DNA of 21,388 nucleotides from Verrucomicrobiota bacterium (GTDB lineage Bacteria; Verrucomicrobiota; Verrucomicrobiia; Limisphaerales; UBA1100), in the NCBI GenBank assembly GCA_015660155.1, contig DQLO01000218.1:1-21388 (forward strand), given 5' to 3'. Shown piece by piece: positions 3,635 to 18,504 of this stretch. The notes below the pieces were generated by a model. It made no database searches. It was not told the origin of the DNA and saw only the letters and a program-made list of their open reading frames with translations. How positions within the stretch are numbered: the first letter of the stretch is position 1; each line of letters starts with the position of its first letter. The position numbers and the translations under genes were made by a program.

Positions 3635-5782
3635 CTAATGGTTAAAGATAAATTCCACCGAATTCATCATTGCCCAAACCAAATCCTCAGCCGCTTTTTG
3701 CCGCTGGAAACGGCGGCTACCCAAATATTGCTCCGCCCGTTCCTGCTCAGTATCACTAGGCAAGCGGCTGAACACCGTAAGGTAAAGTTCGCGCACCAAT
3801 GACGCATCGTTTTTTTGGCGGCCGGTCATTCGCGCAATCTGTCCTCCCGCATGATTGAGCTTGGATTCCAGCTGGGGTGAATTCATCAGGTGCAACGCCT
3901 GTGCCATGCTGGCTCCCACGGCCCGCTCACATTCACAGGCCGACACTCTCGCTGGCCGGCCAAAGAGTTTTAGAAAATAATGCTGCACCTGACTGTCCCA
4001 CAACTGGATGGCCCGTGAACCCGCCGGCACTCCATGAAACTTTTCCTTAATGCCGGTCACCTGACTGACTGCATCGAGCAAGACCTCTGCCGGCAAGCGA
4101 CGCAATAGCGCGCGGGAATGGTTGCGCTCATCGACCATATTGGTTTCGTTCGGCTCCACTGAAAGCTGATAAGTACGAGAGGCGGCAATGAGTTTAATCA
4201 TTGCGCGAAGATCGTACTTTGACTTCACCAGCTCCTTCGCCAATGCGTCTAATAATTCAGGATTACTCGGCGGATTAGTCACGCGCATATCATCCACCGG
4301 CTCCACCAGACCGCGCCCCATAAAATGTGCCCACAACCGATTAACGAGATTACGCGCGAACCAAGGATTATCCGCACGGGTCATCCATCGAGCCAGGGTT
4401 CGGCGACGGTCACCTTCCGGCGCACTCTCAGGCATAGAAGTCCCGAGAGCATAAGGAAAGATAGGCGCACCGGTCCGTGGATGTTTGCCGGCGGGATTGC
4501 CTTCAGCCAATAGTGATTCAGTAGTGCCCAGTTTCTTGTATTTAATCTGGTCAAAAAAACCGCGCATGCCGTAGTAATCCTGCTGGGTCCATTGATCATA
4601 AGGATGCTGGTGACATTCAGCGCAGGTGATACGAACCCCGAGAAAAATCTGGGAGGTCATCGCTGCCATTTCACCCGGTTTAGCCGCGACCTTATAAAAG
4701 AAGCCTGCCGGCTGATCTTGCAACGGTCCTTCGGCCGAAAGTAATTCACGAGCCCATTGATCTAATGGCTTATTCTTCCGCATGGCCTCTCGAATCCACC
4801 CGTAATAGGCAAATGCATTCTCATGCCCAAGTGCAAGTCGATCTACCCGTAATATATCACTCCACTTCAAGGCCCAGAAATCAGCGAACTCTGGGCGATC
4901 CATGAGCCTCTGGACAAGTTTAGCACGTTTATCCGGAGCTTGGTCTTTTAGAAAAGCCTCAGTTTCATTACCGGTAGGCAGGGTGCCAATCAGATCAAGA
5001 AATATCCGACGCAGATAAGTCGCATCATCTGCCACCCCAGAGGGGTGAACATTAAGCCGGGCTAGGTGCTGATCTACCAACCGATCAATAAAATTAAACA
5101 CAGGTCGCGCCGGTAAATTCACCTTGGGCCCAGTTCGCGGCACAATCGCCTGAAACACGGAGACCTTTCCTAGAAAACGAGCCATCACCGAGGTTTGCCC
5201 GATACTATCGCCAATGGTGAGCGAGCCGGTCTCATTCACTTTTGCCATCGCCGGATCATTGGAATGAAATACCGCCTGCCAAGTTACATCCGCCTCTGTT
5301 CCATCCGTGTAACGCGCTATAACCTTGAGTGACTGTTTGGCTCGCAGCAGTAATACCTTTCGCGACGGTTCCATGCGCAAGCCTATGATCGCCGGCCGGC
5401 CCTTCGATTCGTACACCAGACCCGCACGGATCCAATCGCGCAAAACATTGTAGGCGCGTGAACCTATCTGGATTCGTACACCGCCCCCGTGCCCGACCTC
5501 GCCGGTCGCTTTGCGTAACAAGAGACTATCTTCTGGAGCCGATAGCGTAATCCTTCGTCCTCGGCCTTCCTTGATGATCGATTCATAATCAGCCTTGGGA
5601 TCGTTACCGAAAACGGAAAGCTTAAAGCCATTCTGTCCCTCGGCCTTTCCGTGACAGGAAGCTCCATTGCAACCTAGCCGACTTAAGAGTGGCTTCACGT
5701 CCTGAGCAAAATCCACCACCGCACTCGCCTCATTCACCGAAAGGAGAATCAAGCAAAGAATCTGGCATCCGCGAAAGCTCAT
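3635..5782 (-). CDS. PSCyt1 / Big_2 / DUF1549 / DUF1553 cytochrome-like secreted protein
   Basis: A 715-residue protein with an N-terminal signal (about 1-21, ending NEASA). A PSCyt1-like region follows with CNGASCH at 38-44; this heme-type motif has four residues between the cysteines instead of two. Residues about 138-215 look like a bacterial Ig-like (Big_2) domain, with ARYTDGTEADVTW and SNDPAMAKVN. DUF1549 covers about 228-410 and carries a canonical CAECH at 387-391. DUF1553 covers about 460-700, with RRTLARWM, NRLWAHFMGRGLVEP and a C-terminal SRLPSDTE. Covalent heme binding in the periplasm is the family expectation; no enzyme activity is established. It is first in the minus-strand operon, followed by DUF1501 and the PPC-like protein. 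The start is the first ATG before the signal peptide; no good Shine-Dalgarno sequence is visible. Confidence 0.93.
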   Translation of the reverse strand: MSFRGCQILCLILLSVNEASAVVDFAQDVKPLLSRLGCNGASCHGKAEGQNGFKLSVFGNDPKADYESIIKEGRGRRITLSAPEDSLLLRKATGEVGHGGGVRIQIGSRAYNVLRDWIRAGLVYESKGRPAIIGLRMEPSRKVLLLRAKQSLKVIARYTDGTEADVTWQAVFHSNDPAMAKVNETGSLTIGDSIGQTSVMARFLGKVSVFQAIVPRTGPKVNLPARPVFNFIDRLVDQHLARLNVHPSGVADDATYLRRIFLDLIGTLPTGNETEAFLKDQAPDKRAKLVQRLMDRPEFADFWALKWSDILRVDRLALGHENAFAYYGWIREAMRKNKPLDQWARELLSAEGPLQDQPAGFFYKVAAKPGEMAAMTSQIFLGVRITCAECHQHPYDQWTQQDYYGMRGFFDQIKYKKLGTTESLLAEGNPAGKHPRTGAPIFPYALGTSMPESAPEGDRRRTLARWMTRADNPWFARNLVNRLWAHFMGRGLVEPVDDMRVTNPPSNPELLDALAKELVKSKYDLRAMIKLIAASRTYQLSVEPNETNMVDERNHSRALLRRLPAEVLLDAVSQVTGIKEKFHGVPAGSRAIQLWDSQVQHYFLKLFGRPARVSACECERAVGASMAQALHLMNSPQLESKLNHAGGQIARMTGRQKNDASLVRELYLTVFSRLPSDTEQERAEQYLGSRRFQRQKAAEDLVWAMMNSVEFIFNH

Positions 5783-5833
5783 TGGGGAAATAATTACTTA
5801 TTCTGACGCCCTTTTCACTCTTTTTCGTTCAAA

Positions 5834-5945
5834 CTAATTCCCTGGCACATGAGTATCAATGAAAAGCACTTCCAAACCTTGTTCGAAACCCAAATAACCG
5901 ACACGGAAGTTGCGGGAGTACAAAATCTCCAGCAACGCCACCAAG
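5834..5945 (-). pseudogene. Possible 3'-terminal remnant of an unidentified gene
   Basis: Read on the minus strand, this stretch gives about 36 residues of protein-like sequence ending in TAG at 5836-5834, including LLEILYSRNFRVGYLGFEQG and a tail FIDTHVPGN. Its alternating hydrophobic pattern is more protein-like than expected for intergenic DNA. Upstream, the same frame runs into the repeat and stops looking like protein. I do not recognise the family. It may be a gene tail left behind when the repeat-headed operon arrived, or chance. Confidence 0.22.
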
Positions 5946-5965
5946 CGACCCCTTCCGCCTCTTTT

Positions 5966-6018
5966 CCCCCAACAGCATTTACACCAGAGCCGGTGAGGCG
6001 TAGGGTGGCGGGCATGAA
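5966..6018 (+). repeat. Leader repeat, copy 1 (contains start of the 6014 gene)
   Basis: The copy begins with CCCCC, then AACAGCATTTACACCAG (5971-5987), AGCCGGTGAGGCG and TAGGGTGGCGGGC, ending at ATGAA (6014-6018). It is nearly identical to copies at 11397, 16076 and 18452, and its 3' half matches 15029. The start codon of the oxidoreductase is the ATG inside the repeat. Confidence 0.93.
5978..6006 (+). promoter_or_regulatory. Candidate promoter inside repeat copy 1
   Basis: TTTACA (5978-5983, five of six matches to the sigma-70 -35 box) is followed by exactly 17 bases and then TAGGGT (6001-6006, matching TANNNT). Seven bases separate this from the ATG at 6014, so transcription would begin at or next to the start codon, giving a leaderless mRNA. 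The alternative reading is that AGGGTGG acts as a Shine-Dalgarno sequence. Neither can be decided from sequence. Confidence 0.35.
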
Positions 6019-7192
6019 CCGCCGCACATTTCTCGCCGCTTCCACCACCACCCTTTCGTTTCCGTCCTTTGCAAAGAGCTTAGTTAAAAAACTGCGCGTC
6101 GCCGTCATTGGCCACACCGGCCGCGGCAACTTCGGGCATGGGCTGGATACGGTTTGGATGGGCCTGCCGGAAACGGACATCGTCGCCGTGGTCGACGCCA
6201 ACGCGGCGGGATTGGCCAATGCGCAGAAAAAGCTGAAAGTGAAAGATGGGTTTGCCGATTACCGGAAAATGCTGGCGGCGACAAAGCCCGACATCGTGGC
6301 CGTGTGCCCGCGCCATGCGGACCAGCATCACGACATTGCGCTCGCCGCCATCGAGGCCGGGGCCGCGGGTGTTTACATCGAGAAACCATTTGTGCGCACG
6401 CCGGCCGAGGCGGATTCGCTAATTGCCGCCTGCAAAAAACACGGCGCCAAAATTGCCGTGGCGCATCGGAATCGCTATCATCCCATGCTCAAGGTCATCG
6501 ATAAATTCATTGCCGACGGCAAGCTCGGCAAGCTTCTGGAAATTCGCGGGCGCGGCAAAGGCGACCGACGCGGCGGCGCGGAGGATTTGTGGGTGCTCGG
6601 CTCGCACGTGCTGAATCTCATCCATTATTTTGGCGGCGCACCGCGCAACTGCTCCGCGCGGTTGTTTCAAAACGGCAAGCCCGTGACCGCCGCCGATGTG
6701 AAGCCCGGCAACGAGGGCCTCGGCCCCTTGGCCGGCAATGAACTGCACGCCCGCTACGAAATGTCGCGCGGCGTGGTGGCGTATTTTGATTCCATCGCCA
6801 ATGACGGCACGAAAAATTTCGGCTTCGGCCTGCACCTCATCGGCAGCAAAGGCATCCTGGCCCTCCGCAACGACCGCCATCCGCTGGCGCATTGGTTGCC
6901 GGGCAATCCCTTTGCCCCCACGCTTGAACCGCGCCCGTGGATTCCCTTCACCGCCGCCGGTTTGAACCAGAAGCTGCCCAATATGCAAACGATTGACGAC
7001 CTCGTGCATCACGTCACCGCCGCGCGCGACTTGGTGAGCGCCATCCGCGACAACCGCGAGCCGCTCTGCAACGTGCACGAAGGCGCGATGACGGTGGAAA
7101 TGATTTGCGGCGTGTTTGAGTCGCACCGCCAAGGCGGCCGCGCGGTGGCCATCCCACTCAAGGAACGCGGCAACGCGCTGGCGAAACTTTAA
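6014..7192 (+). CDS. Gfo/Idh/MocA family oxidoreductase, Tat-type
   Basis: A 392-residue NAD(P)-dependent dehydrogenase-like protein. It starts MNRRTFLAAS, a Tat signal with arginines at 3-4. The Rossmann region follows from about 27, with LRVAVIGHTGRGNFG in place of the plain GxGxxG and the strand-end acidic D61 in VAVVDAN. The family hallmark EKPF is at 123-126. The C-terminal half is the usual beta-sheet substrate domain, with WVLGSHVLNLIHYFGG. Such enzymes act on sugars, inositols and related polyols; the substrate is not predictable here. The frame is open back to 5849, but those 55 residues are translated repeat, so the ATG at 6014 beside the Tat signal is chosen. Its stop (7190-7192) abuts the ATG of the next gene (TAAATG), indicating an operon with the PSCyt1/DUF1553 and DUF1501 genes. 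Confidence 0.92.
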   Translation: MNRRTFLAASTTTLSFPSFAKSLVKKLRVAVIGHTGRGNFGHGLDTVWMGLPETDIVAVVDANAAGLANAQKKLKVKDGFADYRKMLAATKPDIVAVCPRHADQHHDIALAAIEAGAAGVYIEKPFVRTPAEADSLIAACKKHGAKIAVAHRNRYHPMLKVIDKFIADGKLGKLLEIRGRGKGDRRGGAEDLWVLGSHVLNLIHYFGGAPRNCSARLFQNGKPVTAADVKPGNEGLGPLAGNELHARYEMSRGVVAYFDSIANDGTKNFGFGLHLIGSKGILALRNDRHPLAHWLPGNPFAPTLEPRPWIPFTAAGLNQKLPNMQTIDDLVHHVTAARDLVSAIRDNREPLCNVHEGAMTVEMICGVFESHRQGGRAVAIPLKERGNALAKL

Positions 7193-9517
7193 ATGAACAT
7201 CCTCCTGAGTTTCATCCGGGCAGTTTGTTTTTTGGGGCTGGGCGTTTTTACGCTTTCGGCTGCGCCGGTGGATTATGCGCGCGAAATTCGGCCGTTGTTG
7301 AAAAACAAATGCTCTTCCTGCCACGGCGCGCTGAAGCAGAAAGCCAAGCTCCGGCTGGACGCGGGCAAGCTCATCCACCAAGGCGGCAAGGAGGGCGAGG
7401 TCATCGTGCCCGGCAACGCGAAGGCCAGCGAACTCATCGCCCGCGTGACGTCCAAGGACGAGGACGAACGCATGCCGCCGGAGGGCGAGCCGTTGTCCGC
7501 GCAACAAATCGCGCTGCTGGCCAAGTGGATTAACGCGGGCGCAAAATTTCCGGCGAACGAAACTATCGCCGCGCGGCCGGAGGAGCATTGGTCATTTCAG
7601 CCAGTGAAACGCCCAGCGGTACCCATGGTGAAAAACGCCCAGTGGCTGCTCAACCCCATCGACCATTTCATCCTCGCCAAGCTCAAGGCCAAAGGCTGGC
7701 AGCCGAATGACTCCGCCACGCCGATGCAACTCCTCCGCCGCGCCCACCTCGACCTCATCGGCCTCCCGCCAACTCTCGCCGAACAGGACGGCTTCAAAAA
7801 TTCCGCACTCCGCAATCCGAATTCCGCATTGGAAAACCTCATCGACAATCTGCTCGCGCGCAAGGGCTACGGCGAACGCTACGCCCGCCACTGGCTCGAC
7901 GTCGTTCGTTACGCCGACTCCAACGGCTACGAGCGCGATGGCGCCAAGCCTGAGGTTTGGCGGTTCCGCGATTACGTCATCCGCGCGCTGAACGCTGACA
8001 AGCCGTTCGACCGTTTCCTCATCGAGCAGCTCGCGGGCGATGAGGTGGACGGCGCGAACACGGAGACCATCCTCGCCACCGGCTTCAACCGCCTCGGCCC
8101 GTGGGACGATGAGCCGGCGGACTTCGCCGTGGACCGCTTCGACCAGCTCGACGACATCGTCAACACCACCAGCCAAGCCTTCCTCGGCCTCACAATGGGC
8201 TGCGCGCGCTGCCACGACCATAAGTTCGACCCGCTGCTCCACACGGATTACTATTCAATGGTCGCCATTTTCAATCCACTCCAACGGCCGCAAACCGGTC
8301 GGACAGAACTGACGCGCTACGCTATCCCGCCGACACAGGCGAAGCCGTTCGAGGAGCGAGACACAAAAATCGCCACCGCCCGGGATGCCATCAAGAAACT
8401 CGATGAACAGTTGAAAAAGAAGCCGGAGGATGCGGCCTTGAAAAAACAAAAGGCCGTGCAGAACGCGCTCATTGCGAAGCTGGAAAAAGAACTCCCTTCG
8501 CCCGCCCGCGGCTATTTTCTTTACGAACCCTCGCCCGCGGTGCCGGTCACGCATCTGCTCAAGCGCGGCAACCCCAAGACGCCCGGCGACATTGTGCCCG
8601 CCGCCGTGCCAGTTGTGTTTGGGAAAAAGCCACTGAAATTCCTGGCGCCCACCGCGCACACCTCGCGCCGCCGCCTCACACTGGCGCGGTGGATTGGCAG
8701 CTCCGACAACCCGCTCACGGCGCGCGTCATCGTCAACCGCGCGTGGCAGTGGCACTTCGGCCACGGGCTGGTGCGAACGCCCAACGACTTCGGCCTGCTT
8801 GGCGAGCCGCCCACACATCCCGAGCTGCTCGACTGGCTGGCGTACTGGTTTGTGCACGACGCCAAGTGGTCTCTGAAAAAACTGCATCGCCTCATCATGC
8901 CCAGCCGCGCGTGGCAAATGAGCCGCGAACCCCGTGCCGCACAAATCACCGCCGACCCCGACAACCGCCTCCTATGGCGCATGCCCTATCGCCGCCTCGA
9001 GGTCGAGGCCATTCGCGACTCGATGCTTTTTGTCAGCGGCCGGCTCGACCGAAAAATGTTTGGCCCCGCGATGCACCCCTTCGTCCCGCGCGACGCCCTG
9101 CTCAACCACGCCGACAAGGAAAAAATCTGGCCCAAGTTCAACGAGGCCGCCTCCAGCCGCCGCACCATCTACGCCTACGTCAAGCGCTCCCTGCTCATCC
9201 CGCTGCTCGAGGTGCTCGACCTCTGCGACACCACCCAGACTTCCCCGCAACGCAAGGTCACCACCGTCCCCACGCAAGCGCTCACTCTATACAACGGCAA
9301 CTTCGCAATGCGCCAAGCCAACCACTTTGCCGCACGTCTCCAACGCGAGGCCGGCGGTGATTTGGACAAACAAATTCGACGCGCATGGCGGCTTGCCCTA
9401 TCCCGTCCACCCACCAAAATCGAGCACGCGAAAGCAAAAAAATTCGTGCAGGAAGAAAGCCTCGCACAACTGTGTCGCGTGATTTTCAATCTAAATGAAT
9501 TCGTGTACCCCGATTGA
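7193..9517 (+). CDS. PSCyt1 / DUF1549 / DUF1553 cytochrome-like secreted protein
   Basis: A 774-residue protein with a Sec signal (about 1-23, ending LSAA) and a planctomycete-type cytochrome domain: CSSCH at 40-44, then MPPEGEPLSAQQ and KWINAG near 94-116. DUF1549 (about 150-355) includes LDLIGLPPT, YGERYARHWLDVVRYADSNG and a second heme-type motif, CARCH, at 337-341. A charged lysine-rich helix (about 380-425) is probably a coiled coil. DUF1553 follows (about 490-750), with RRRLTLARWIGSSDNPLTAR and NRAWQWHFGHGLV. Periplasmic heme attachment is expected; the reaction is unknown. Unlike the paralogue at 3635, it has no Big_2 insertion and its first motif is canonical CxxCH. A heptamer tandem repeat lies inside the gene at 7800. 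The start touches the previous stop, suggesting translational coupling. Confidence 0.95.
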   Translation: MNILLSFIRAVCFLGLGVFTLSAAPVDYAREIRPLLKNKCSSCHGALKQKAKLRLDAGKLIHQGGKEGEVIVPGNAKASELIARVTSKDEDERMPPEGEPLSAQQIALLAKWINAGAKFPANETIAARPEEHWSFQPVKRPAVPMVKNAQWLLNPIDHFILAKLKAKGWQPNDSATPMQLLRRAHLDLIGLPPTLAEQDGFKNSALRNPNSALENLIDNLLARKGYGERYARHWLDVVRYADSNGYERDGAKPEVWRFRDYVIRALNADKPFDRFLIEQLAGDEVDGANTETILATGFNRLGPWDDEPADFAVDRFDQLDDIVNTTSQAFLGLTMGCARCHDHKFDPLLHTDYYSMVAIFNPLQRPQTGRTELTRYAIPPTQAKPFEERDTKIATARDAIKKLDEQLKKKPEDAALKKQKAVQNALIAKLEKELPSPARGYFLYEPSPAVPVTHLLKRGNPKTPGDIVPAAVPVVFGKKPLKFLAPTAHTSRRRLTLARWIGSSDNPLTARVIVNRAWQWHFGHGLVRTPNDFGLLGEPPTHPELLDWLAYWFVHDAKWSLKKLHRLIMPSRAWQMSREPRAAQITADPDNRLLWRMPYRRLEVEAIRDSMLFVSGRLDRKMFGPAMHPFVPRDALLNHADKEKIWPKFNEAASSRRTIYAYVKRSLLIPLLEVLDLCDTTQTSPQRKVTTVPTQALTLYNGNFAMRQANHFAARLQREAGGDLDKQIRRAWRLALSRPPTKIEHAKAKKFVQEESLAQLCRVIFNLNEFVYPD
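7800..7830 (+). repeat. In-frame heptamer tandem repeat inside the DUF1549 region
   Basis: Four consecutive 7-bp units, ATTCCGC, ACTCCGC, AATCCGA and ATTCCGC (7800-7827), followed by ATT. They encode the run NSALRNPNSAL (residues 203-213), which falls in a variable loop between LPPT and YGERYARHWLD. The units are low-complexity and unlike surrounding codon use. This resembles the short tandemly repeated heptamers known from some bacterial genomes and is tolerated without a frameshift. Confidence 0.75.
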
Positions 9518-9518
9518 C

Positions 9519-10976
9519 ATGAGTGCCTTCACGCGATTCGTCCCAAACCACACCCCGTGCGGCAACACGCGGCGGGAGTTTTTGTGGCAAGCCGGCGCGG
9601 GCTTTGCGGGGCTGGGCCTCATCGACGCCCTCACGCGCGACAACGCCTTCGCTGGCGAAATGGCCGCGAAGCCACAGCATTTTCCGGCCAAGGCGAAGCA
9701 CGTGGTTTTCCTTTTCATGAACGGCGGCCCAAGCCACGTGGACACCTTTGACCCCAAGCCGGCGCTCACAAAATGGAACGGCAAAAAGTACGCCGGCGAA
9801 TACATGGTGGGCTCCAACGGCCGCCCCGTCGGCTACCTCACGCAAACGACCTTTGGTTTCAAACGGTACGGCCAGAGCGGCTTGCCCATCAGCAGCATTT
9901 ACCCGCACCTCAGCGCGCACGCGGACGAGCTTTGCGTCATCCGCTCGATGCATTCGGACACGCCGTCGCACGCGTCGGGCTGCATCCAGATGAACACCGG
10001 CAGCGTCATCATCGGCAAGCCGTGCCTCGGCTCGTGGCTCAGCTACGGCCTCGGCACCGAGAACGAAAACCTGCCGAGCTTCGTGGTGATGACCGACCCG
10101 CGCGGTGGCCCCATCGGCAGCGGCTCGAACTGGTCCAGCGGCTTCATGCCCGCGGCGTATCAAGGGACAACGTTCCGCAGCACCGGCTCGCCGCTGCTGA
10201 ACCTCGCCACCCCCAAGGGCACCACCGAAAAGACGCAGCGCCGCGGGCTGGACTTGTTAAAGGAACTGAACGGCGAGCATGTCAAAAAGCGCCAGACGAA
10301 GGGGCCGATTGACAGCGAACTACTGGCGCGCATCGAGAGCTACGAACTGGCCTATCGCATGCAGACCTCCGCCGCCGAGGCGGTCGACTTGAATCGCGAG
10401 GACAAAAAGACGCGCGAAATGTACGGGCTCGACCAGAAGCTCACCGCTGACTTTGGCCGGAAATGTTTAATCACGCGCCGCCTCATCGAGAAGGGCGTGC
10501 GGTTCATCCAGCTTTACAGCGGCGGTGGCCACATCGAGGACACGTGGGACGGCCACACCGACTGCATCAGCAACCACAAACTGCACGCCGGCGAGACCGA
10601 CCAACCCATCGCAGCACTCATCGCCGACCTCAAGCGCAGCGGTTTGTGGGACGAAACGCTGCTAGTTTGGGGCGGCGAGTTCGGCCGCACGCCCACCAGC
10701 GAAGGCGTCGGCAAACCCGGCCGCGACCACAACTGGCACGGCTTCACCATGTGGCTCGCCGGAGCTGGCGTAAAAGGCGGCCAAGCCATTGGCGCGACCG
10801 ACGAATTCGGTTTTGGCGCCGTGGAAAATCCCGTGCACGTCAGTGACCTGCACTCCACCATCCTCCACTTAATGGGCCTTGACCACGACAAGCTCACCTA
10901 CTTCCACCAAGGCCTCGACCAAAAACTAACCGGCGTCGACCGCCAGGCGAAGGTGGTGAAGAAGGCGCTGGCGTAA
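9519..10976 (+). CDS. DUF1501 family Tat-exported protein
   Basis: A 485-residue DUF1501 protein starting MSAFTRFVPN. The Tat-like signal has arginines at 18-19 (TRREFLWQAGAGFAGLGL). Typical motifs follow: VVFLFMNGGPSHVDTFDPKP, SDTPSHASGCIQMNTG, RFIQLYSGGGHIEDTWDGH, GGEFGRTPTSEG, GRDHNWHGF and a C-terminal LMGLDHDKLTY. The fold is sulfatase/phosphatase-like but the substrate is unknown. The ATG at 9519 lies one base past the TGA of the previous gene; an in-frame ATG at 9495 would overlap that gene by 23 bases and is the alternative start. Neither has a clear Shine-Dalgarno sequence, so coupled translation is likely. It is the last gene of the operon beginning at 6014 and is longer than the paralogue at 2285. 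Confidence 0.94.
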   Translation: MSAFTRFVPNHTPCGNTRREFLWQAGAGFAGLGLIDALTRDNAFAGEMAAKPQHFPAKAKHVVFLFMNGGPSHVDTFDPKPALTKWNGKKYAGEYMVGSNGRPVGYLTQTTFGFKRYGQSGLPISSIYPHLSAHADELCVIRSMHSDTPSHASGCIQMNTGSVIIGKPCLGSWLSYGLGTENENLPSFVVMTDPRGGPIGSGSNWSSGFMPAAYQGTTFRSTGSPLLNLATPKGTTEKTQRRGLDLLKELNGEHVKKRQTKGPIDSELLARIESYELAYRMQTSAAEAVDLNREDKKTREMYGLDQKLTADFGRKCLITRRLIEKGVRFIQLYSGGGHIEDTWDGHTDCISNHKLHAGETDQPIAALIADLKRSGLWDETLLVWGGEFGRTPTSEGVGKPGRDHNWHGFTMWLAGAGVKGGQAIGATDEFGFGAVENPVHVSDLHSTILHLMGLDHDKLTYFHQGLDQKLTGVDRQAKVVKKALA

Positions 10977-11171
10977 ACACTCGCCGCACTCTGGCGGCAG
11001 GTTGTCCAGCATCAGTTTCACCTTTGCAAAAATACAAAGCGGGGGCATCCTTGGGCCGCTGTGAGGTTTCTGCCGGTTCCGAATTGATTCAGACCGTGAA
11101 ACCAGACCAAAACCAGACTCGCGGCGGCCCAGTGATACTGAGTTTGATAATTTACCCCATAAAACAGGGTT

Positions 11172-11214
11172 GCCGGTGTGGTGGAATTGGTAGACACAGG
11201 GGACTTAAAATTCC
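11172..11214 (+). tRNA. 5' half of tRNA-Leu(UAA), broken just after the anticodon loop
   Basis: The sequence fits tRNA-Leu positions 1 to about 42. The acceptor strand is GCCGGTG (11172-11178), followed by TG and the D-arm GTGGAATTGGTAGACAC with its G18-G19. The anticodon stem strand is GGGGA (11199-11203) and the loop is CTTAAAA (11204-11210) with anticodon TAA. The 3' side of the anticodon stem degrades after TTCC. No class II variable arm, T-arm or matching CACCGGC-ACCA strand follows in the next 300 bases, so this cannot make a functional tRNA. Confidence 0.85.
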
Positions 11215-11396
11215 ATTTATATGTTCTACCTTGTTCAATATAGTACTGTTTTTATGGGTTAATCCGTTTCACCCTCTACCTGCTTACCGATACAAAAGTG
11301 GCACAAAAACTGACAACCGGGGGCGGGGGGTGGCCCACCGATTCATGCGGGCAAAGCGTGGACGCGTTGACGCGGACAGATTGTTTTCGCAATAGG

Positions 11397-11442
11397 CCCA
11401 ACAGCATTTACACCAGAGCCGGTGTGGCGTAAGGTGGCGGGC
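11397..11442 (+). repeat. Leader repeat, copy 2 (start codon lost)
   Basis: CCC then AACAGCATTTACACCAG (11400-11416), AGCCGGTGTGGCG and TAAGGTGGCGGGC (to 11442). Compared with copy 1 there are two substitutions (GAGG to GTGG, TAGGGT to TAAGGT) and the ATG has become GCT. TTTACA (11407-11412), the 17-base gap and TAAGGT (11430-11435) remain. The next gene starts 85 bases further on, so this copy no longer sets a start codon. Confidence 0.9.
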
Positions 11443-11465
11443 GCTTACGTAAACTCCATCTTGTG

Positions 11466-11494
11466 TTGAAAAAGGTTAAACGATAAGCTGACAT
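11466..11494 (+). promoter_or_regulatory. Weak candidate promoter for the 11527 operon
   Basis: TTGAAA (11466-11471), 17 bases, then TGACAT (11489-11494), 32 bases before the ATG at 11527. The -35 is good but the -10 matches only three of six positions. It is offered because repeat copy 2 has lost its start codon and some promoter is needed here. Confidence 0.2.
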
Positions 11495-11526
11495 TTAACG
11501 TTGATGCCTCAGCACTCGACTACACC

Positions 11527-13464
11527 ATGACCAAGCCGATCCATGCATGGGAAACCCTGAAAGGTGCCCGGAGCTACCAGGTCTTGGGCTTAGCTATAAT
11601 TTGGTGTTCGGTGTCAGTCAGTTGGGCGGAGATCGGCGATAAAGGTACCGACGAAGCGACGCTCCGAGCTGATGCCCAGAAGGTCTTCAAGGAAAAGGTC
11701 GGCCCCTTCGTAAACAAATACTGCACGCGCTGCCACGGCAGCCGGGCCAAGGCGGGTATCAACCTGCAATCAGCGCTCAAGAACCCCGGTGGCGAGTCCG
11801 CGTCACTGCATTGGAAAAAGGCGGTGGCCAACGTCAAGGTGCATGAAATGCCGCCGGAAGATGCCTCCAAGAAACCGACCGATGAAGAGCGCCGGCAGTT
11901 CGCCGAGTGGGTCGGCAAGATCAAGTACCTGGCGCCGCGTGATCCCGGCTGGTTTGTTATCCGCCGGCTCACCAAGACCGAATACGCCAACACCCTGCGC
12001 GATCTGTATGGGGTCGATCCCTCCATCGCCGATACCCTGCCCGCGGAGGTGGAAGGCGAAGGTTTTCTCAACTCGATTTCCCCGCTGCAATCGGAACTGT
12101 TCCTCGGCATCGCCAACAAGGTGATTGATCAGATAATCGCGCCGGAAGGCCAAGCGCCCACCGCCGTTCAAAAACGCCTCTTCGGTGAGACGCCCAAAGG
12201 CACTGACCTCCGCAAGGCAGCCCGCGGAGTCGCGCGTACGCTGGCCCGGGACGCCTACCGCCGGCCGCCGACCGATGCGGAACTGGATGTCCTCGTCGAT
12301 GTCTACGATCTCGCCCGCAACAATGATCTCAATCACATGGCGGCACTGGGCCTAATGCTCAAGGCCGTGCTCGTCTCGCCGCAGTTCCTGTTTATCACGC
12401 CCGCCGGCGAACCGGAATCGAAGGACGCAATCGTCCTGCTGGACGACTTCCAGTTGGCCTCGCGTTTGTCGTACCTGCTGTGGTCGGCACCGCCCGACGC
12501 GGAACTGGCCGCCTTGGCCGACAAGGGCGACCTGCACAAGCCCGAGGTACTGCGCACACAAGTGGAACGACTGTTAAAGGATGCCCGGTCGCGGGCGTTG
12601 TTCGACGGGTTCGGCGCGCAATGGCTGCGGGTCAACGAATTGGACGGACAAGTGTTCGATCCAAAAACATTCCCCCAAATGACGCCGGCCTTACGCACGG
12701 CGATGATGGACGAAGCCCGCCTTTTTTTCGAAAGCATCGTGAGCGAGAACCAAAGCGTGGTGCGGTTCGTGAGTAGCGACTACACGTTTGTCAATGAACC
12801 ACTTGCCAAGGTGTACGGGCTCGAGCAATCCGTGCGCGGGCTGAAGATGCGTCGGGTGAAGCTGACGAACCCCAACCGCGGCGGCATCCTCAGCATGCCG
12901 GCCACGCTAGCAACGACCTCATTTCCCAACCGAACCAGCCCCGTGCTCCGTGGAGTATGGGTGCTGGAGCGGATTTTGGGTGAACGCGTCCCGCCGCCGC
13001 CAGCCGACATTCCCGAACTCGAGGAACAAGACCACAAGAAAATCGAGGGACTAACATTGCGCCAACGCACCGAGCTGCACCAATCCGAAGCCACCTGCCG
13101 CAATTGCCACAAGATCCTCGACCCGATTGGTTTCGGGTTAGAGAATTTCGATGCCATCGGTCGATGGCGTGAAAAGAACGACCAAGGCCTCGCCATCGAC
13201 TCGGCAGGCAAACTGCCCGATGGGAAAGAGTTTTCCACTCCCGCGGAATTGAAGCGCCTGTTGGCCAAGCGGGAGGCAGACTTGGCCCGTAACCTCACCG
13301 AACGACTCATGGCCTACGCGCTGGGCCGGAAGTTGGAGGGCTACGACGATGTTGTCATCGATCAATTAATGGTTAAGATTGCCGCAGACAATTATCGCGT
13401 GCGCACCATCATCACCGAGGTCATCACCAGCTACTTATTTACCCACCGCAGAATCAAAGGATGA
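11527..13464 (+). CDS. DUF1587/DUF1595/DUF1592/DUF1588/DUF1585 cytochrome-like protein
   Basis: A 645-residue secreted protein with a signal peptide (about 1-34, ending VSWA). CTRCH at 66-70 is a c-type heme motif of the PSCyt1-like domain, with MPPEDA at 108-113. Domains follow in the usual order: DUF1587 (about 146-205, [19 protein letters not shown]), DUF1595 (about 235-295, [13 protein letters not shown]), DUF1592 (about 305-430, [19 protein letters not shown] and GFGAQWL), DUF1588 (about 445-545, [21 protein letters not shown] and a second heme-type CRNCH at 524-528 before [12 protein letters not shown]), and DUF1585 (about 560-640). Function is unproven; heme-linked periplasmic redox chemistry is the inference. 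It is the upstream partner of the DUF1552 gene, which overlaps it by four bases (ATGA), a very common pairing in this group. Confidence 0.95.
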
Positions 13465-14837
13465 AAATGAACAACCCTTCACACATTGGCCGCCGCACCT
13501 TTCTGAAAGGCGCGGGTGTTTCCCTCGCGCTGCCGTTTATGGATTCCCTCAGCTGGGCCGCCGGCACCAAGGCCGCCAAACCGCCGGTGCGCCTCGCGTT
13601 CATGTATATGCCGCACGGGGTCATCATGGATCAGTTCTGGCCGAAGAGCCAGGAGGCCTTTCTCAACTCCCCGCCGCCCATCATCCAGTCCCTGCAACCG
13701 ATCATGGACCAGTGCCTGATGATGAAAGGCATCTCCGGAGTGCCGATCGCCCCCTTCAACGGTGCGCCGCACGCGCTGGAGCTTTCGACCTGGCTCACCG
13801 CGCGCTTGCCGGATGCCAGCACCCGCGGTCGCATCAACATCGCCATCTCGGCCGACCAGATCATGGCCAACTACGTCGGGGCCCACACCTTGCTGCCTTC
13901 GCTAGAGCTGGCGACGATGCCCCAGACATGGAAGGAAAATCAGGCGGGCCTGCACGAAGGGTACTACTCGTATTGCAGCTACCGCTCGCCCACGCAACCC
14001 GTTCCCGCCGAGATCGATCCCCGAAATGTCCTGAACCGGCTTTTCGGTAAGCGCGGCAAGGAGGGCCGCGTCACCCAGACTAACCCATTGGACCGGCAAA
14101 TGCTCGACCGCGTTCTTGGTGGCGCCCGGGACCTGCGCCGGACACTGGCCAAGCCCGACCGGCAGAAGCTCGATGAGTACCTCGACAGCGTGCGCGCGGT
14201 AGAGCGGCGCATCGCCGCGATCGAGTCCCGTCAGCAAGAGGCCGCCCTGGAGAAGGGGGGCGTTCGGTCGTCCAAACGGCACGCCACCGACTCGCCGCCA
14301 ATCGAGGTCAAGATTCCCGTAGGCGACAAGCGCAGTGAGTACATGCAGGTCATGTGCGACCTAACTGTTCTGGCTTTCCAGACCGACACCACGCGCGTCA
14401 GCACCTACATCGGGTCCAGACCAAACGGAGCGTCCTACCCCGAACTGGGCTTCACCAACCAGCACCACTCGCAGACGCACTACGGCAAGGATCAGGAAAA
14501 GATTCGTAAGGTGGCGGCAATCAACGAATTCAACGTCGCGCAGTTCGCCTACATGGTCAAGAAGATGAACGCCCTGAAGGAGGGCGAAGGCACACTGCTC
14601 GACAACTGCATCATGATGTGGGGCTCGGGCTTGGAAGACGGCAACAAGCACCAACGGAAAAACCTCCCATTCATTCTTGCCGGCAAAGGCGGTGGCGCAC
14701 TCAAGACCGGCCGCTTCCTGCCCAACATCAAGGGCAACCAGGGCGACCTGCTCACCACTCTACTCTCCTGCGCCGGCGTACCTCTCGACCGCCCAATCGG
14801 CATCGCGACCAAGCAGATCAACGAAATAAAGGCCTGA
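13461..14837 (+). CDS. DUF1552 family Tat-exported protein
   Basis: A 458-residue protein starting [19 protein letters not shown], with twin arginines at 11-12 and a hydrophobic segment ending SLSWA. DUF1552 motifs include [17 protein letters not shown], a long central acidic/basic helix with [18 protein letters not shown] (likely coiled coil), [19 protein letters not shown], and [24 protein letters not shown] near the C-terminus. The protein is related in organisation to DUF1501 and is likely exported folded, but its chemistry is unknown. The ATG at 13461 overlaps the previous stop as ATGA; a second in-frame ATG at 13467 is equally possible. No terminator is evident after it. Confidence 0.95.
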
Positions 14838-14936
14838 CCAATATTTCGACGGCAGCCGACACTATCGTATTGGAGTTTCATGCGCCGTTCCACTACGACG
14901 CGAAGTGCACAATCATCAGCGACTTCGATTAATATC

Positions 14937-15011
14937 TTACTCCTCCCCATCAAACTCCTTCAGCGCCTTGGCGATCTTGATGCACATCTCTGAACAGCGT
15001 GACATCAGTCC
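14937..15011 (-). pseudogene. Possible C-terminal gene remnant
   Basis: On the minus strand a short frame ends QGLMSRCSEMCIKIAKALK and then EFDGEE before a TAA at 14939-14937. It looks like an amphipathic C-terminal helix. Upstream (higher coordinates) the frame immediately enters repeat copy 3 and the esterase gene, so any original N-terminal part has been replaced. The family is not recognised; chance is possible. Confidence 0.2.
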
Positions 15012-15028
15012 TTGAGCAGGCGTGGCGG

Positions 15029-15067
15029 GAGGCGTAGGGTAGCGGGCATGAAGCAGATTCTCTTGAT
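15029..15067 (+). repeat. Leader repeat, copy 3 (3' half only, extended into the coding start)
   Basis: GAGGCGTAGGGT (15029-15040), then AGCGGGC and ATG at 15048, then AAGCAGATTCTCTTGAT to 15067. It lacks the AACAGCATTTACACC half. The match with copy 4 continues 17 bases past the ATG, so the two genes share the codons for MKQILL. One base differs in the non-coding part (GTGG to GTAG). TTGAGC (15012-15017) sits exactly 17 bases upstream of TAGGGT and could stand in for the missing -35 box. Confidence 0.9.
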
Positions 15068-15983
15068 ACATCCCATGCCACGATTGATTCTCCTGATCCT
15101 GCTGCCGTTGTCCTGCCTTGATGCCAAGCAGGTCAACAGTGCAGACGCTCCCGTGGGCAAAGTGCACATCTACAAACAGGAGGGCGACACCGCTCGCGAG
15201 ATAGAAATCTTTTTTCCGAAGGATCATGACCCGGCAACGAAGGCTGTTCCAGGCATCATTATGTTTCATGGAGGCGGCTGGGGCGGAGGACATCGGAAAC
15301 AGTTCCGTTATCTTTGCCATTACTTTTCCACAAGGGGACTCGTCGCCGCCACTGTAACATACAAGCTCGCCCCAAAGGCCCGCACCGAAGAAGCTAAAAG
15401 CACGGAATCTCGGAAGCGCGTCTGCATAACCGACGCAAAGAGTGCCATTCGCTGGTACAAGCAGAATGCGGAAGAACTTGGCATAGATCCGCGGAAAATT
15501 GTCGCAGGCGGGGGCTCGGCCGGGGGGCATATTAGCTTACTGGCAACTACTAATCCCAGGTTGAACGATCCCGGAGACCCCAAGAAATACGATACAACTG
15601 TTGCGGCTTATCTCTTATTCAATCCGGCTCTAGGTGCAGGAGATGCCAAGGATCCGCAAGTCGACTTCTTGCAACACCTCAAAGATGACTTACCGCCTGC
15701 TATTGTATTTTTTGGAAGCGAGGACACGTGGTTGAAAAAAGGGTGGAAAGCTGCGAGCGCGAAGATATCCTCACTCAACATTGCTGACTCCGTAGACGTT
15801 CGGATCGCCGATGGTCAGAGGCATGGCTTCTTTAACAGGCAACCTTGGACCGATGTCACTCTCATCGAAGCGGACAGATTCTTAAAGGCTCTCGGTTATC
15901 TCGAGGGTGATCCCACCCTGATAATGCCCAAAACGGGAGAGAAACTTGAGGATGCGAATAAGACGGTGGACTCAACGCGCTGA
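15048..15983 (+). CDS. Secreted alpha/beta-hydrolase (acetyl-esterase-like)
   Basis: A 311-residue alpha/beta-hydrolase. The oxyanion-hole motif HGGGW is at 74-78, the nucleophile elbow GGSAGG at 155-160 (Ser157), a likely acid Asp226 in FFGSEDTW and the catalytic His259 in GQRHGFF. These place it with the esterase/lipase and feruloyl/acetyl-esterase-like hydrolases of the HSL/BD-FAE type, which remove acyl groups from sugars or small esters. The N-terminus MKQILLIHP is repeat-derived; a second Met at residue 10 (15075) begins a self-sufficient signal sequence (MPRLILLILLPLSCLDA), so the ancestral start may have been there. The frame is also open back to a TTG at 15012, rejected because it is repeat DNA. 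It is less G+C-rich than the genes upstream. Confidence 0.88.
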   Translation: MKQILLIHPMPRLILLILLPLSCLDAKQVNSADAPVGKVHIYKQEGDTAREIEIFFPKDHDPATKAVPGIIMFHGGGWGGGHRKQFRYLCHYFSTRGLVAATVTYKLAPKARTEEAKSTESRKRVCITDAKSAIRWYKQNAEELGIDPRKIVAGGGSAGGHISLLATTNPRLNDPGDPKKYDTTVAAYLLFNPALGAGDAKDPQVDFLQHLKDDLPPAIVFFGSEDTWLKKGWKAASAKISSLNIADSVDVRIADGQRHGFFNRQPWTDVTLIEADRFLKALGYLEGDPTLIMPKTGEKLEDANKTVDSTR

Positions 15984-16075
15984 CGCGAGTGAGTTACCTC
16001 AAACGTTATCCAATGTGCATTGCCCAAGTGCAGAATCAGCAGCAACCCAACGAAGTAACCCACTCACCCCTGCCG

Positions 16076-16143
16076 CCCCCAACAGCATTTACACCAGTGC
16101 CAGTGAGGCGTAGGGTGGCGGGCATGAAGCAGATTCTCTTGAT
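16076..16143 (+). repeat. Leader repeat, copy 4 (contains start of the 16124 gene)
   Basis: CCCCC, AACAGCATTTACACCAG (16081-16097), TGCCAGTGAGGCG, TAGGGTGGCGGGC, then ATG at 16124 and AAGCAGATTCTCTTGAT to 16143. It differs from copy 1 by two substitutions in the non-coding part (AGAGCCGG to AGTGCCAG) and shares the extended coding start with copy 3. The DNA before it (from about 16060) is also C-rich, as before copy 1. Confidence 0.93.
16088..16116 (+). promoter_or_regulatory. Candidate promoter inside repeat copy 4
   Basis: TTTACA (16088-16093), 17 bases, TAGGGT (16111-16116), seven bases, then ATG at 16124: the same arrangement as copy 1. The substitutions between copies fall in the spacer and leave both hexamers unchanged. 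Confidence 0.35.
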
Positions 16144-18178
16144 GATTGCGGTGGTGCTGTTGATCTCATTCTCGTTCACCGTACAAGCGGCGGTTCCAAT
16201 TCGTATCCTGGATTCAAAAGTTTATCACCTGGGCACACCCGGGTTTCCTGAGTGGGAGGAGTTTGAAAAAAGCAAGCCACACGGACGGCGCCTGGACGTG
16301 AAATTCAACGCGAAAGCGAATAAGGCCGCGCAGACTCTTCTGATCTGCCAGCGACAGGTGAAGTTTCGCTGGTCAGTGCTCCTGAATAACCAGCGGATTG
16401 GCAACCTGCTGAGCATTGACTCCAAACTGGTGCACAAGATCACTGTGCCACCGAACAAATTGCGTGACGGTGAAAACACGCTCTCAATCGTCGCGCCCAA
16501 GGCAACTGATGATATCGAGGTGGGGCCAATTCGGCTGTCGTCGGTGTCTCCGGAACGCTTGTTTTCAAAGTTTCTGACCGTGGGAATCAAGGACGCCGAC
16601 AACGACAAACCCCTGCCTTGCCGCATCACCATTGTCGATGGGAACGGAGCATTGGCCGCGCTGCGCCCCGCACCAGGACAACGATTGGCTCATCGTCCGG
16701 GAGTAATTTATGTGAGCAACGGCCAGGCACGCATCGGGCTACTGCCGGGCAGCTACACTGTCTTTGCCTCGCGAGGTTTTGAGTACAGCGTAGCAAAAAA
16801 GGCGGTTGAGATCACACTGGACAAGCCCGCCGAGCTTCAGCTTGAACTCCGGCGGGAAGTCCCCACGCCCGGCCTTATCGCGACCGACACCCACATCCAC
16901 ACGCTGACCCGCAGCGGCCATGGCGATTCCACCGAAAAGGAGCGCATGCACACGATCGCTGGCGAAGGCATTGAATTGGCCGTAGCCACCGATCACAACC
17001 ACCACGCCGACTATAGACCCGTGCAAAAGGCCACCGGCACATCGGCGTTTTTCACCAGCGTGATCGGCAATGAAGTGACAACAAAGACGGGCCACTTCAA
17101 TGCCTTCCCCATCGCGCCCAATAGCCCCGTGCCGGACTATAAGCTGGGCGACTGGACAAAACTGATGGCCTCGATACGCAGCACGCCAGGCGTGCGCGTG
17201 GTGGTGTTAAATCATCCACGCAATATCCACAGCGGTTTTAGTCCGATGGCGGCGGAAAATTTCAACCCCGTAACCGGACGCAATCTCTATGGGTCTCCAT
17301 ACAGTTTTGATGCAATGGAGGTGGTAACCTCTGCCGCGATGCAGTCGGACATTATGGCTCCTTACCGTGACTGGTTCGCAATGCTCAACTGGGGCCACAA
17401 CATCACGGGGGTCGGATCGAGCGACACGCATGATGTTAGTCGCTTTATCCTTGGGCAGGCTCGTACCTATGTGGAATGCCCCGACAATACCCCCGGCAAG
17501 ATCGACTTAGCCAAGGCGTGCGAGAGCTTCCGTGAAATGCGCGCATACATCAGCATGGGACTGCTAGTCAAGATGAAGGTGGATGACAGATTTCGGGTGG
17601 GCGACCTGGCCACCGGAAAGAATGAGAAAATCAAGGTGACCGTGCGGGTGCTTGGCCCTTCCTGGGCACGCGCTGACCGGGTGAACCTTTTCGCCAACGG
17701 CCACCTGATCCGCACTCAAGCCATTAGGCCCAGCACGGCTATCGAGAAAGCGAACCGTACGTGGGACATTCAGCGGCCGGCCCATGACGTACACCTGATC
17801 GCCATGGCAACCGGCCCGGGTATTACCGCGCCGTTTTGGGAGAGCCCAAGATCCTACCAACCCACCTCCAAGAAACATGATCCCCGTTTGCAGGGCGCAA
17901 CCAACCCCATTTTCATTGATGGCGATGGCGATGGAAAATACACCCCACCGCGCATGCAGGCCGAGCGGCTGTTCTCAAGGCACAAGCGCGAGATCGGCGC
18001 CCTGTTGGAAGCCCTGCACCCCCTTGACCGGGCAGTCGCCACTCAACTGGCCACGCTGATGCACGATGCCGGGCACGATTTGCGCGGGCCGGACATTCAA
18101 AAGCGCATCGCCAACATCGCGGCGGCCAAGTCCGGCTTTTCTGATTTCATTGCCACCTTGCCTCAAAAAAATCCATAG
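16124..18178 (+). CDS. Secreted PHP-domain metallohydrolase, CehA/McbA-like
   Basis: A 684-residue protein with a clear Sec signal (MKQILLMIAVVLLISFSFTV, cleavage likely after QA at 22). The N-terminal half (about 25-245) is beta-rich and includes a segment resembling a carboxypeptidase-regulatory fold (IKDADNDKPLPCRITIVDGNG to LPGSYTVFASRG). From about 250 comes a PHP-type metal site: DTHIHT (His257, His259), ATDHNHHADY (Asp290, His291), NEVTT (Glu317), GHFNAFP (His324), LNHPRN (His364) and SSDTHD (Asp434, His436). This matches the CehA/McbA metallohydrolase group, which contains carbaryl- and McbA-type hydrolases; the native substrate here is unknown. The C-terminal region (about 440-684) is less conserved. 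The frame runs back to 15989, but the first 45 residues are translated repeat and C-rich spacer, so 16124 is chosen. Confidence 0.88.
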   Translation: MKQILLMIAVVLLISFSFTVQAAVPIRILDSKVYHLGTPGFPEWEEFEKSKPHGRRLDVKFNAKANKAAQTLLICQRQVKFRWSVLLNNQRIGNLLSIDSKLVHKITVPPNKLRDGENTLSIVAPKATDDIEVGPIRLSSVSPERLFSKFLTVGIKDADNDKPLPCRITIVDGNGALAALRPAPGQRLAHRPGVIYVSNGQARIGLLPGSYTVFASRGFEYSVAKKAVEITLDKPAELQLELRREVPTPGLIATDTHIHTLTRSGHGDSTEKERMHTIAGEGIELAVATDHNHHADYRPVQKATGTSAFFTSVIGNEVTTKTGHFNAFPIAPNSPVPDYKLGDWTKLMASIRSTPGVRVVVLNHPRNIHSGFSPMAAENFNPVTGRNLYGSPYSFDAMEVVTSAAMQSDIMAPYRDWFAMLNWGHNITGVGSSDTHDVSRFILGQARTYVECPDNTPGKIDLAKACESFREMRAYISMGLLVKMKVDDRFRVGDLATGKNEKIKVTVRVLGPSWARADRVNLFANGHLIRTQAIRPSTAIEKANRTWDIQRPAHDVHLIAMATGPGITAPFWESPRSYQPTSKKHDPRLQGATNPIFIDGDGDGKYTPPRMQAERLFSRHKREIGALLEALHPLDRAVATQLATLMHDAGHDLRGPDIQKRIANIAAAKSGFSDFIATLPQKNP

Positions 18179-18387
18179 TCGACTCGGGTTACACAAATAT
18201 TAACGACTAATACTCTGAATAAGGCTGTTAAAATGTCACTTATCTTCAAATGGTTTCAGCATCGCACGCCGAAGGCTGACAACCCATATCGTGTCCCGCA
18301 TTTGTCCCAGTTCATAGGTGTTCTGTACTGTTGATAACTGTGCAGCAGTTTAGAAAACCCATTAAAACAACCGAAAAAACGCTCATA

Positions 18388-18439
18388 AATTCTCATTCGC
18401 AACGCGAAGGTCTGGAGTTCGATTCTCCATGGCTCCACC
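18388..18439 (+). tRNA. 3' half of a tRNA (Ala(CGC)-like), starting around the anticodon arm
   Basis: From the 3' end: CCA, discriminator A, acceptor strand TGGCTCC, T-arm TGGAG-TTCGATT-CTCCA with a seven-base loop, and variable bases AGGTC. Before these come a stem strand CGCGA and a loop TTCGCAA that would give anticodon CGC. U70 in the acceptor strand fits the alanine G3-U70 pair. The 5' anticodon strand (TCTCA) pairs poorly, and no GGGGCCA or GGAGCCA strand or D-arm lies upstream, so only the 3' half is present. A tmRNA 3' end also has U70 and the same tail; the variable AGGTC and U33 favour tRNA. Confidence 0.7.
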
Positions 18440-18451
18440 ATCCATTTCATT

Positions 18452-18504
18452 CCCCCAACAGCATTTACACCAGAGCCGGTGAGGCGTAGGGTGGCGGCGA
18501 TGAA
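18452..18504 (+). repeat. Leader repeat, copy 5 (orphan)
   Basis: CCCCC (18452-18456), AACAGCATTTACACCAG, AGCCGGTGAGGCG, TAGGGTGGCGGCG and ATG at 18500. It is identical to copy 1 up to the last two bases before the ATG, which are CG instead of GC. TTTACA (18464-18469) and TAGGGT (18487-18492) keep the 17-base gap. It begins 12 bases after the CCA end of the half-tRNA and has no full-length gene behind it. Confidence 0.92.

Follow-up and report, generated by a model that had tools for sequence, protein, structure and literature searches.

Putative mobile promoters, as reportedly described by Matus-Garcia, Nijveen and van Passel in 2012, are near-identical promoters that stand before non-homologous genes in one genome and its relatives. 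The repeat described here is like them in placing near-identical promoter sequences ahead of non-homologous genes, and unlike them in that its module reaches the start codon, appears to be leaderless and often comes with a signal peptide; its orthologous loci, furthermore, show a different native promoter in its place. By this analogy, and as far as sequence can tell, the repeat would work like mobile promoters to which a start codon and an export signal have been added. Integron cassette arrays likewise carry repeats at gene-size spacing and in one orientation within clusters, two properties shared by the clustered copies of the present repeat; unlike integron repeats, it lies 5' of the genes and carries a promoter, with neither an integrase over the cut-off nor a hairpin. 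In horizontal regulatory transfer, or intergenic-region switching, the upstream region of an orthologous gene is exchanged for a non-homologous one, according to the excerpts relied on here (PMC5890482, PMC9944727); in contrast to what these excerpts describe, one repeated sequence is reused in the present case, and the exchange may reach into the coding sequence. Published leaderless promoters share with the repeat a -10-like box directly ahead of the start codon and, in the sections cited, belong to single genes, whereas here the unit is a dispersed repeat (PMC12340547, PMC3160421); the word Verrucomicrobia is absent from the main text of PMC3160421. A gene family of Schistosoma japonicum, as presented in the cited part of its description, likewise combines a core promoter and a signal sequence that recur, in similar form, across the genome; in that case the organism is a eukaryote, and repetitive elements and alternative splicing are invoked (PMC3434034). 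Among the matches listed in the open-licence literature, there was no earlier account of this repeat.

The window, that is, the whole stretch of 21,388 nucleotides analysed here, comes from the draft genome of a Verrucomicrobiota bacterium (2.15 Mb in 423 contigs, estimated to be 73.6% complete). A repeat of five copies had been claimed for it in an earlier note, and a 48-nt consensus recovers them as four full copies of about 48 bp and one half copy; a direct-repeat search places their starts near 5968, 11397, 16078 and 18454 (full) and at 15029 (half). A 41-base pattern with at most three mismatches matches six places in this draft genome, four of the six inside the window, and its reversed control matches none. 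The copies, their genes and the neighbouring tails of leucine-rich-repeat (LRR) lipoprotein genes are as follows.

5909 to 5951, plus strand: degenerate 3' tail from a gene for an LRR lipoprotein, ending shortly before copy 1 (nhmmer E=0.0019; outside the set from which the profile was built).
5966 to 6013, plus strand: copy 1, identical to the 48-nt consensus; -35 TTTACA at 5978-5983, 17-bp spacer, -10 TAGGGT at 6001-6006, then 7 nt to the ATG at 6014.
6014 to 7192, plus strand: copy-1 gene, a GFO_IDH_MocA oxidoreductase (Pfam PF01408); the protein begins MNRRTFLAAS, which we take to be a twin-arginine-like start.
11395 to 11442, plus strand: copy 2, with TTTACA and TAAGGT retained and no start codon; the next triplet is GCT, and an ORF begins 84 bp downstream at 11527.
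11527 to 13464 and 13461 to 14837, plus strand: two-ORF operon behind copy 2.
14901 to 14928, plus strand: possible, weak LRR-gene tail downstream of the copy-2 operon (nhmmer E=0.064).
15012 to 15047, plus strand: copy 3, the 3' half of the repeat (about 15029-15047) joined to a different upstream half, in which TTGAGC (15012-15017) lies 17 bp from TAGGGT (15035-15040); ATG at 15048.
15048 to 15983, plus strand: copy-3 gene, an esterase (Pfam BD-FAE / Abhydrolase_3), with MKQILLIHP fused in frame ahead of the start MPRLIL of its relatives.
16010 to 16061, plus strand: LRR-lipoprotein gene tail (LPKCRISSNPTK, then stop) between the copy-3 gene and copy 4, found by regular expression and one of the eight profile-building sequences.
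16076 to 16123, plus strand: copy 4; -35 at 16088-16093, -10 at 16111-16116, ATG at 16124.
16124 to 18178, plus strand: copy-4 gene, a 684-aa protein without a Pfam family, possibly PHP-like, that begins with 11 codons of the repeat's signal peptide.
18452 to 18499, plus strand: copy 5, promoter elements intact, heading only a 28-codon ORF at the ATG of 18500.

The single orientation stated in the earlier note holds within the window, where all copies are on the plus strand, and fails beyond it, as contig C5 of genome G006 has copies on both strands. An ATG directly abuts copies 1, 3, 4 and 5 and not copy 2, which lies upstream of its operon without an ATG, as had been stated. Copy 5 stands, also as stated, at a micro-ORF, and the two together are likely to be a relic. 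The further statement that the repeat ends exactly at the ATG is too narrow for many gene-heading copies, in which the repeat runs on past the ATG as ATGAAGCAGATTCTCTTGATGATTGCGGTGGTGGCGTTGGTGGGGTGTGG, translated MKQILLMIAVVALVGCG, a conserved stretch that appears to be a lipoprotein-type signal peptide with a lipobox by our own reading. Eleven codons of this peptide are kept behind copy 4, about six behind copy 3 and none behind copy 1; of these three, described earlier as heads of secreted-protein genes, only copies 3 and 4 show the repeat's own signal peptide, the copy-1 protein having instead what we read as a twin-arginine-like start.

Other sequences border the copies. A module of about 227 bp (11171-11397) ends at the left edge of copy 2 and recurs at locus L064 (2956-3180, 88%) and L070 (68%), with parts in L066 and L088; read by eye, it starts as an apparent 5' half of a tRNA-Leu broken off after the anticodon stem. 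After the copy-4 gene, in the window (18400-18443) as in G003 (L269, 14907-14979), there is an apparent tRNA 3' half with a terminal CCA. ARAGORN found no whole tRNA in the window, and no Rfam family matched it at the gathering score; a structured RNA was set aside as an identity for the repeat on the absence of Rfam matches in the window.

Beyond the window, the repeat is nearly limited to one genus. Searched as 27 nt with at most three mismatches, it occurs in 8 of 98 related genomes, namely all seven of the genus (7, 4, 3, 14, 1, 4 and 25 matches in G000 to G006) and G083, which belongs to another family. The same eight (7/7 of the genus and G083) are returned from the 320 genomes of the order with 43 nt and at most three mismatches, a pattern that matches none of the 13 genomes from other genera of the family. 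The sole copy found beyond the genus (L103, 5549-5575, in G083) heads a Trypsin_2 protein with MKHILLMIALV; it may represent either a transfer or a mis-binned contig. One exact degenerate pattern gave no match in viral_contigs. At least five places of the repeat are no more than 100 bp from where a contig stops (G000 C191; G002 C215, C300 and C455; G003 C2), as expected of repeats in draft assemblies; since such repeats can break assemblies, they may account for contigs that end in repeat sequences.

To assess placement, 69 hits with at most seven mismatches were collected from stretches fetched from the genus and the outlier genome G083. Removal of one chance match (L074, minus strand) and of copies cut by contig ends left 66, exclusion of those with more than five core mismatches left 63, and merging of copies identical over the 48 nt and the following 30 nt brought the set to 58. 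This merging also removed copies that head different genes, for example that of the G005 sulfatase; the half copy 3 stands outside the count. A start codon follows immediately after 47 of the 58 distinct copies (44 ATG, 3 GTG): 34 open a reading frame of 60 aa or more and 13 a shorter one, and the remaining 11 copies lack a start codon. Sites drawn at random from these loci carry a start codon in 5.3% of cases, and one that opens 60 codons or more in 1.8%. Neither outcome that the earlier note named as a refutation was seen, since in the fetched stretches placement is not random with respect to start codons and the repeat is not confined to this locus. The mobile expression leader envisaged in that note is well supported by these 47 copies at the starts of unrelated genes and by five gene families with orthologues both with and without the repeat. 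Two copies, L064 9592 (G006) and L097 2620 (G002), head 12-codon ORFs (MNAEYTSRALKK, MYTKHTSRALKK) that are perhaps relics of a gene whose middle was deleted.

The layout of the repeat is TTTACA, 17 bp, TAGGGT, 7 nt, ATG, and its putative promoter positions are the most conserved. Among the 34 ORF-heading copies, changed cells amount to 3/204 in the -35 hexamer, 0/102 in the TA...T frame of the -10 box, 9/102 in its middle three bases, 39/578 in the spacer, 18/238 in the last 7 nt and 25/238 in the 7 nt left of the -35. For the -35 and TA...T together this gives 3/306 against 91/1156 elsewhere (p=6e-7), compared with 1/117 against 23/442 in the 13 short-ORF copies (p=0.04) and 7/99 against 40/374 in the 11 start-less copies (p=0.35), all three p values being optimistic as the copies share ancestry. 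TA...T is unaltered in 141 of 141 cells of the start-bearing copies. Substitutions 5' of the ATG are distributed evenly over the codon positions (23, 24, 22), so that this part does not look coding; a coding sequence was rejected, the frame being open (PPTAFTPEPVRRRVAG-M) while third positions are not favoured and the copy-1 orthologues start at the ATG.

These features suggest a promoter of the sigma-70 type with its -10 box 7 nt ahead of the start codon, the mRNA starting at or near the A of the ATG and thus being leaderless. The box is of the TANNNT type, and TAGGGT ends 7 nt from the ATG; in the parts of the literature cited, the TANNNT of leaderless promoters lies about 6-7 bp ahead of the ORF (PMC12340547), or about 12 bp as counted from the first T of the box (PMC3160421). 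Against the promoter reading, TAGGGT agrees with TATAAT at only three of six positions. Starts of a leaderless type are seen more widely in the genus. In 780 kb of G006, with repeat genes left out and every gene read from its first ATG, a choice that makes the signal less sharp, the picture is this: among 377 genes with an upstream gap of at least 50 bp, TAnnnT starts at -12 in 20, over a background of 3.6 per position, and at each of -17 to -13 in 7 to 10. The repeat's own box begins at -13 (8/377), off the genome-wide peak, which counts against the reading; the combined -35/-10 pattern is most frequent at 6 nt from the ATG (five cases), with one case at 7 nt. SD-like pentamers are enriched too, at -14 to -12 (9 each versus 1.9). 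No clear TAnnnT peak appears in the 176 genes whose upstream gap is shorter. Taken together, it seems quite probable that transcription starts at the repeat and that the mRNA is leaderless.

The genes headed by the repeat are diverse. A Pfam scan covered 30 headed proteins: 27 from the set of 34 ORF-heading copies, a further two from L097 and the product of the copy-3 gene. Ten are LRR proteins, 16 fall in 14 other families or are weak hits to these, one is a weak TPR hit, and three, the copy-4 protein included, have no family. Above the cut-off, besides LRR, are GFO_IDH_MocA, BD-FAE esterase, Sel1, SNase, S9 hydrolase, PDZ, sulfatase (2, that of L091 among them), PQQ_2, NHL, CBM9, Thioredoxin_7, DUF2726, GH16 and Trypsin_2; a second PQQ_2 and the TPR hit fall below it, and two of the 14 non-LRR families are alpha/beta hydrolases. 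One promoter sequence thus stands before non-homologous genes, LRR genes and those of 14 other families. Read by eye, the proteins of L091, L095, L080, L092 and L345 apparently carry two tandem signal peptides, the leader's being fused in frame before the native one.

Five gene families have repeat-bearing and repeat-free orthologues. For the copy-1 gene, nine genomes hold orthologues of 61-92% identity with a full 5' end (a tenth, in G013, begins at a contig end and was left out along with weaker homologues), and the repeat is present in none of the nine. All nine instead have TTGACA-N16-CAnnnT-N5/6-ATG, with TTGACA 27 or 28 nt ahead of the same ATG, a pattern that would be the native promoter. 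In the window, TTGACA is absent from 5600-6013; homology to G001 (90% in DNA) starts at 6012, 2 nt before the ATG, and blastn finds no similarity between the two upstream of it. For the copy-4 gene, the promoter and 11 peptide codons in the window come from the repeat, whereas the orthologue in G003 (87%) combines the repeat promoter with a different signal peptide; in nine other orthologues (62-72%, one partly masked) the repeat is absent from the stretch compared. Relatives of the copy-3 gene in G019, G015, G006 and G003 (80-86%; a G003 homologue at 72% was left out) are free of the repeat. The sulfatase has promoter and peptide in G006 and G005 and another peptide without the repeat in four genomes of genus g5 (86-88%), with G002 and G003 left out of the comparison as their contigs begin inside the gene. 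The NHL-repeat protein has the promoter in G003, G001 and G000 (cut by a contig end in G000), a second kind of signal peptide being fused ahead of the native start in these repeat-bearing genomes, and there is no repeat in G004, G005 or seven genomes of other genera.

At three joints, six to eight bases are common to the repeat and the native sequence (GCATGAA at copy 1, TGATTGCG at copy 4, GGGTTG at the sulfatase), sequences that were read by eye, partly against distant orthologues, and are suggestive only; the copy-3 joint has no clear shared sequence. Joining at short shared sequences, followed by selection for spacing and frame, is offered tentatively, at somewhat below an even chance.

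The architecture of the repeat, the constraint on its promoter positions, its exact placement at start codons, the variety of its genes and the orthologues with and without it are all read from the sequence, and the account that we find probable on this basis sees the repeat as a leaderless promoter module, in many cases extended by a signal peptide, that spreads and recombines onto unrelated genes within one genus. In its longer form, promoter, start codon and lipoprotein-type signal peptide would make up one DNA module, which recombination would put in place of the original 5' end of genes that are unrelated and mostly encode exported proteins. The captured genes would likely be brought under one promoter, the long form adding a common export signal. 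As the source of the module we propose a family of LRR-lipoprotein genes. At E<0.1, a profile of LRR-gene 3' tails finds a match immediately ahead of 14 of 57 copies, the other 43 having no recognisable tail; the profile was built from eight regular-expression finds (8/57), which leaves six independent finds, three of them at E<0.01. In 780 kb of G006, the one profile match at E<0.1 lies directly behind a repeat copy. As eight of the 14 matches had themselves built the profile, we lowered our estimate of an LRR-gene origin slightly, and place it a little above even.

The repeat is also a place of rearrangement. Of 129 homologous blocks (at least 400 bp, at least 80% identity) between loci picked for interest, either their own or as orthologues of repeat-headed genes, and hence not genome-wide, 13 begin or stop where a repeat has its left edge, nine of them on both sides. 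The pairs include window 11398/L094, window 16073/L269, L068/L088, L075/L089, L080/L092 and L071/L079 and hold window 11398 with G001, window 16073 with G003, the sulfatase, the NHL gene and a small ORF (L071/L079); the first corresponds to 96.7% identity over 3.4 kb (11398-14839), G001 having the same operon likewise behind a start-less copy. Upstream DNA is unlike in the block pairs compared (L095 is cut at a contig end), and it is from these block starts with differing upstream DNA that the rearrangement is concluded. From the repeat's left edge, L068 (4914 onward, G006) and L088 (5477-1, G005) are 99.7% identical over at least 5.48 kb, to the end of the fetched stretch; this block may be a recent transfer, since the other G005/G006 blocks listed have about 81-96% identity.

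Such block starts are what a gene-capture array would produce, in which LRR-lipoprotein genes serve as landing sites and foreign genes enter behind a promoter and signal peptide already in place, much as in an integron, while the leader itself stays where it is. The nine pairs starting at the left edge on both sides, with differing upstream DNA wherever sequence exists, agree with it, as do the gene-size spacing of clustered copies, the copy-3 esterase lying between a repeat with signal-peptide start and an LRR tail, and the L071/L079 block, which starts at one repeat and reaches into the left portion of another. (At about 6166-6200 of L071 the repeat is shortened within the spacer; L079 has there a full copy heading a PQQ protein.) On the other hand, at the three right block ends inspected, the block stops with the gene and no repeat is present, the others running off contigs or fetched stretches; the signal-peptide difference at the copy-4 gene, in a gene already headed by the repeat, is a 5'-end exchange and no gene insertion; and the integron integrase profile TIGR02249 stays below its 265-bit cut-off in all seven genomes, which are incomplete (best 85.8 bits), while DNA folding of either strand is no better than that of shuffles (z=0.89 and 0.48). 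The row of repeat-headed cassettes suggested earlier thus finds support at its left edges and in one second repeat, and none at the three right ends or in an integrase; we regard gene capture as rather unlikely. An integron proper was rejected for want of an integrase over the cut-off (0/7 genomes) and of attC-like folding.

A recombination device for variable surface lipoproteins is less probable still. Recombination of this kind occurs in the surface-protein families of mycoplasmas, and here the shared promoter and signal-peptide stretches would keep LRR-lipoprotein genes recombining, other captures being a by-product. The share of LRR proteins (10 of the 30 scanned) fits, and so does the same downstream gene with different upstream DNA, or the reverse; yet 14 other families are headed as well, and there is no single expression site, as the start-bearing copies keep their promoter elements intact. 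Plain descent of one gene family, with the headed genes as paralogues sharing an inherited 5' region, suits the LRR genes and paralogous pairs in G006 such as L072 and L073, and as a general account it is very improbable, being contradicted by unrelated Pfam families, five with leader-free orthologues. Equally improbable is an ordinary dispersed intergenic repeat (MITE/REP-like) lying before genes by chance, which would be short, multi-copy and nearly genus-limited as observed, with 11 of 58 copies heading nothing, but which is contradicted by the 47 that end exactly at start codons, by the absence of a hairpin and by the lack of any native TTGACA left upstream at copy 1. A MITE or REP element was rejected for lacking terminal inverted repeats, palindrome and hairpin, none of the best 25 of 45 inverted-repeat pairs in the window forming arms that flank a copy.

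In a leaderless promoter, the start codon is joined to the promoter in one compact unit that moves as a whole; a single recombination event could therefore supply transcription and translation and, in the present case, export as well. Comparison across related species, from native promoter to borrowed promoter to promoter with borrowed signal peptide, makes the birth of new bacterial gene starts visible. A bolder version, to which we assign a low probability, holds that the LRR-lipoprotein gene arrays are expression and export sites where a single step equips foreign genes with promoter, start codon and signal peptide, much as in exon shuffling and possibly with a recombination machinery of their own; if true, such arrays would build a genus-specific set of co-expressed exported proteins.
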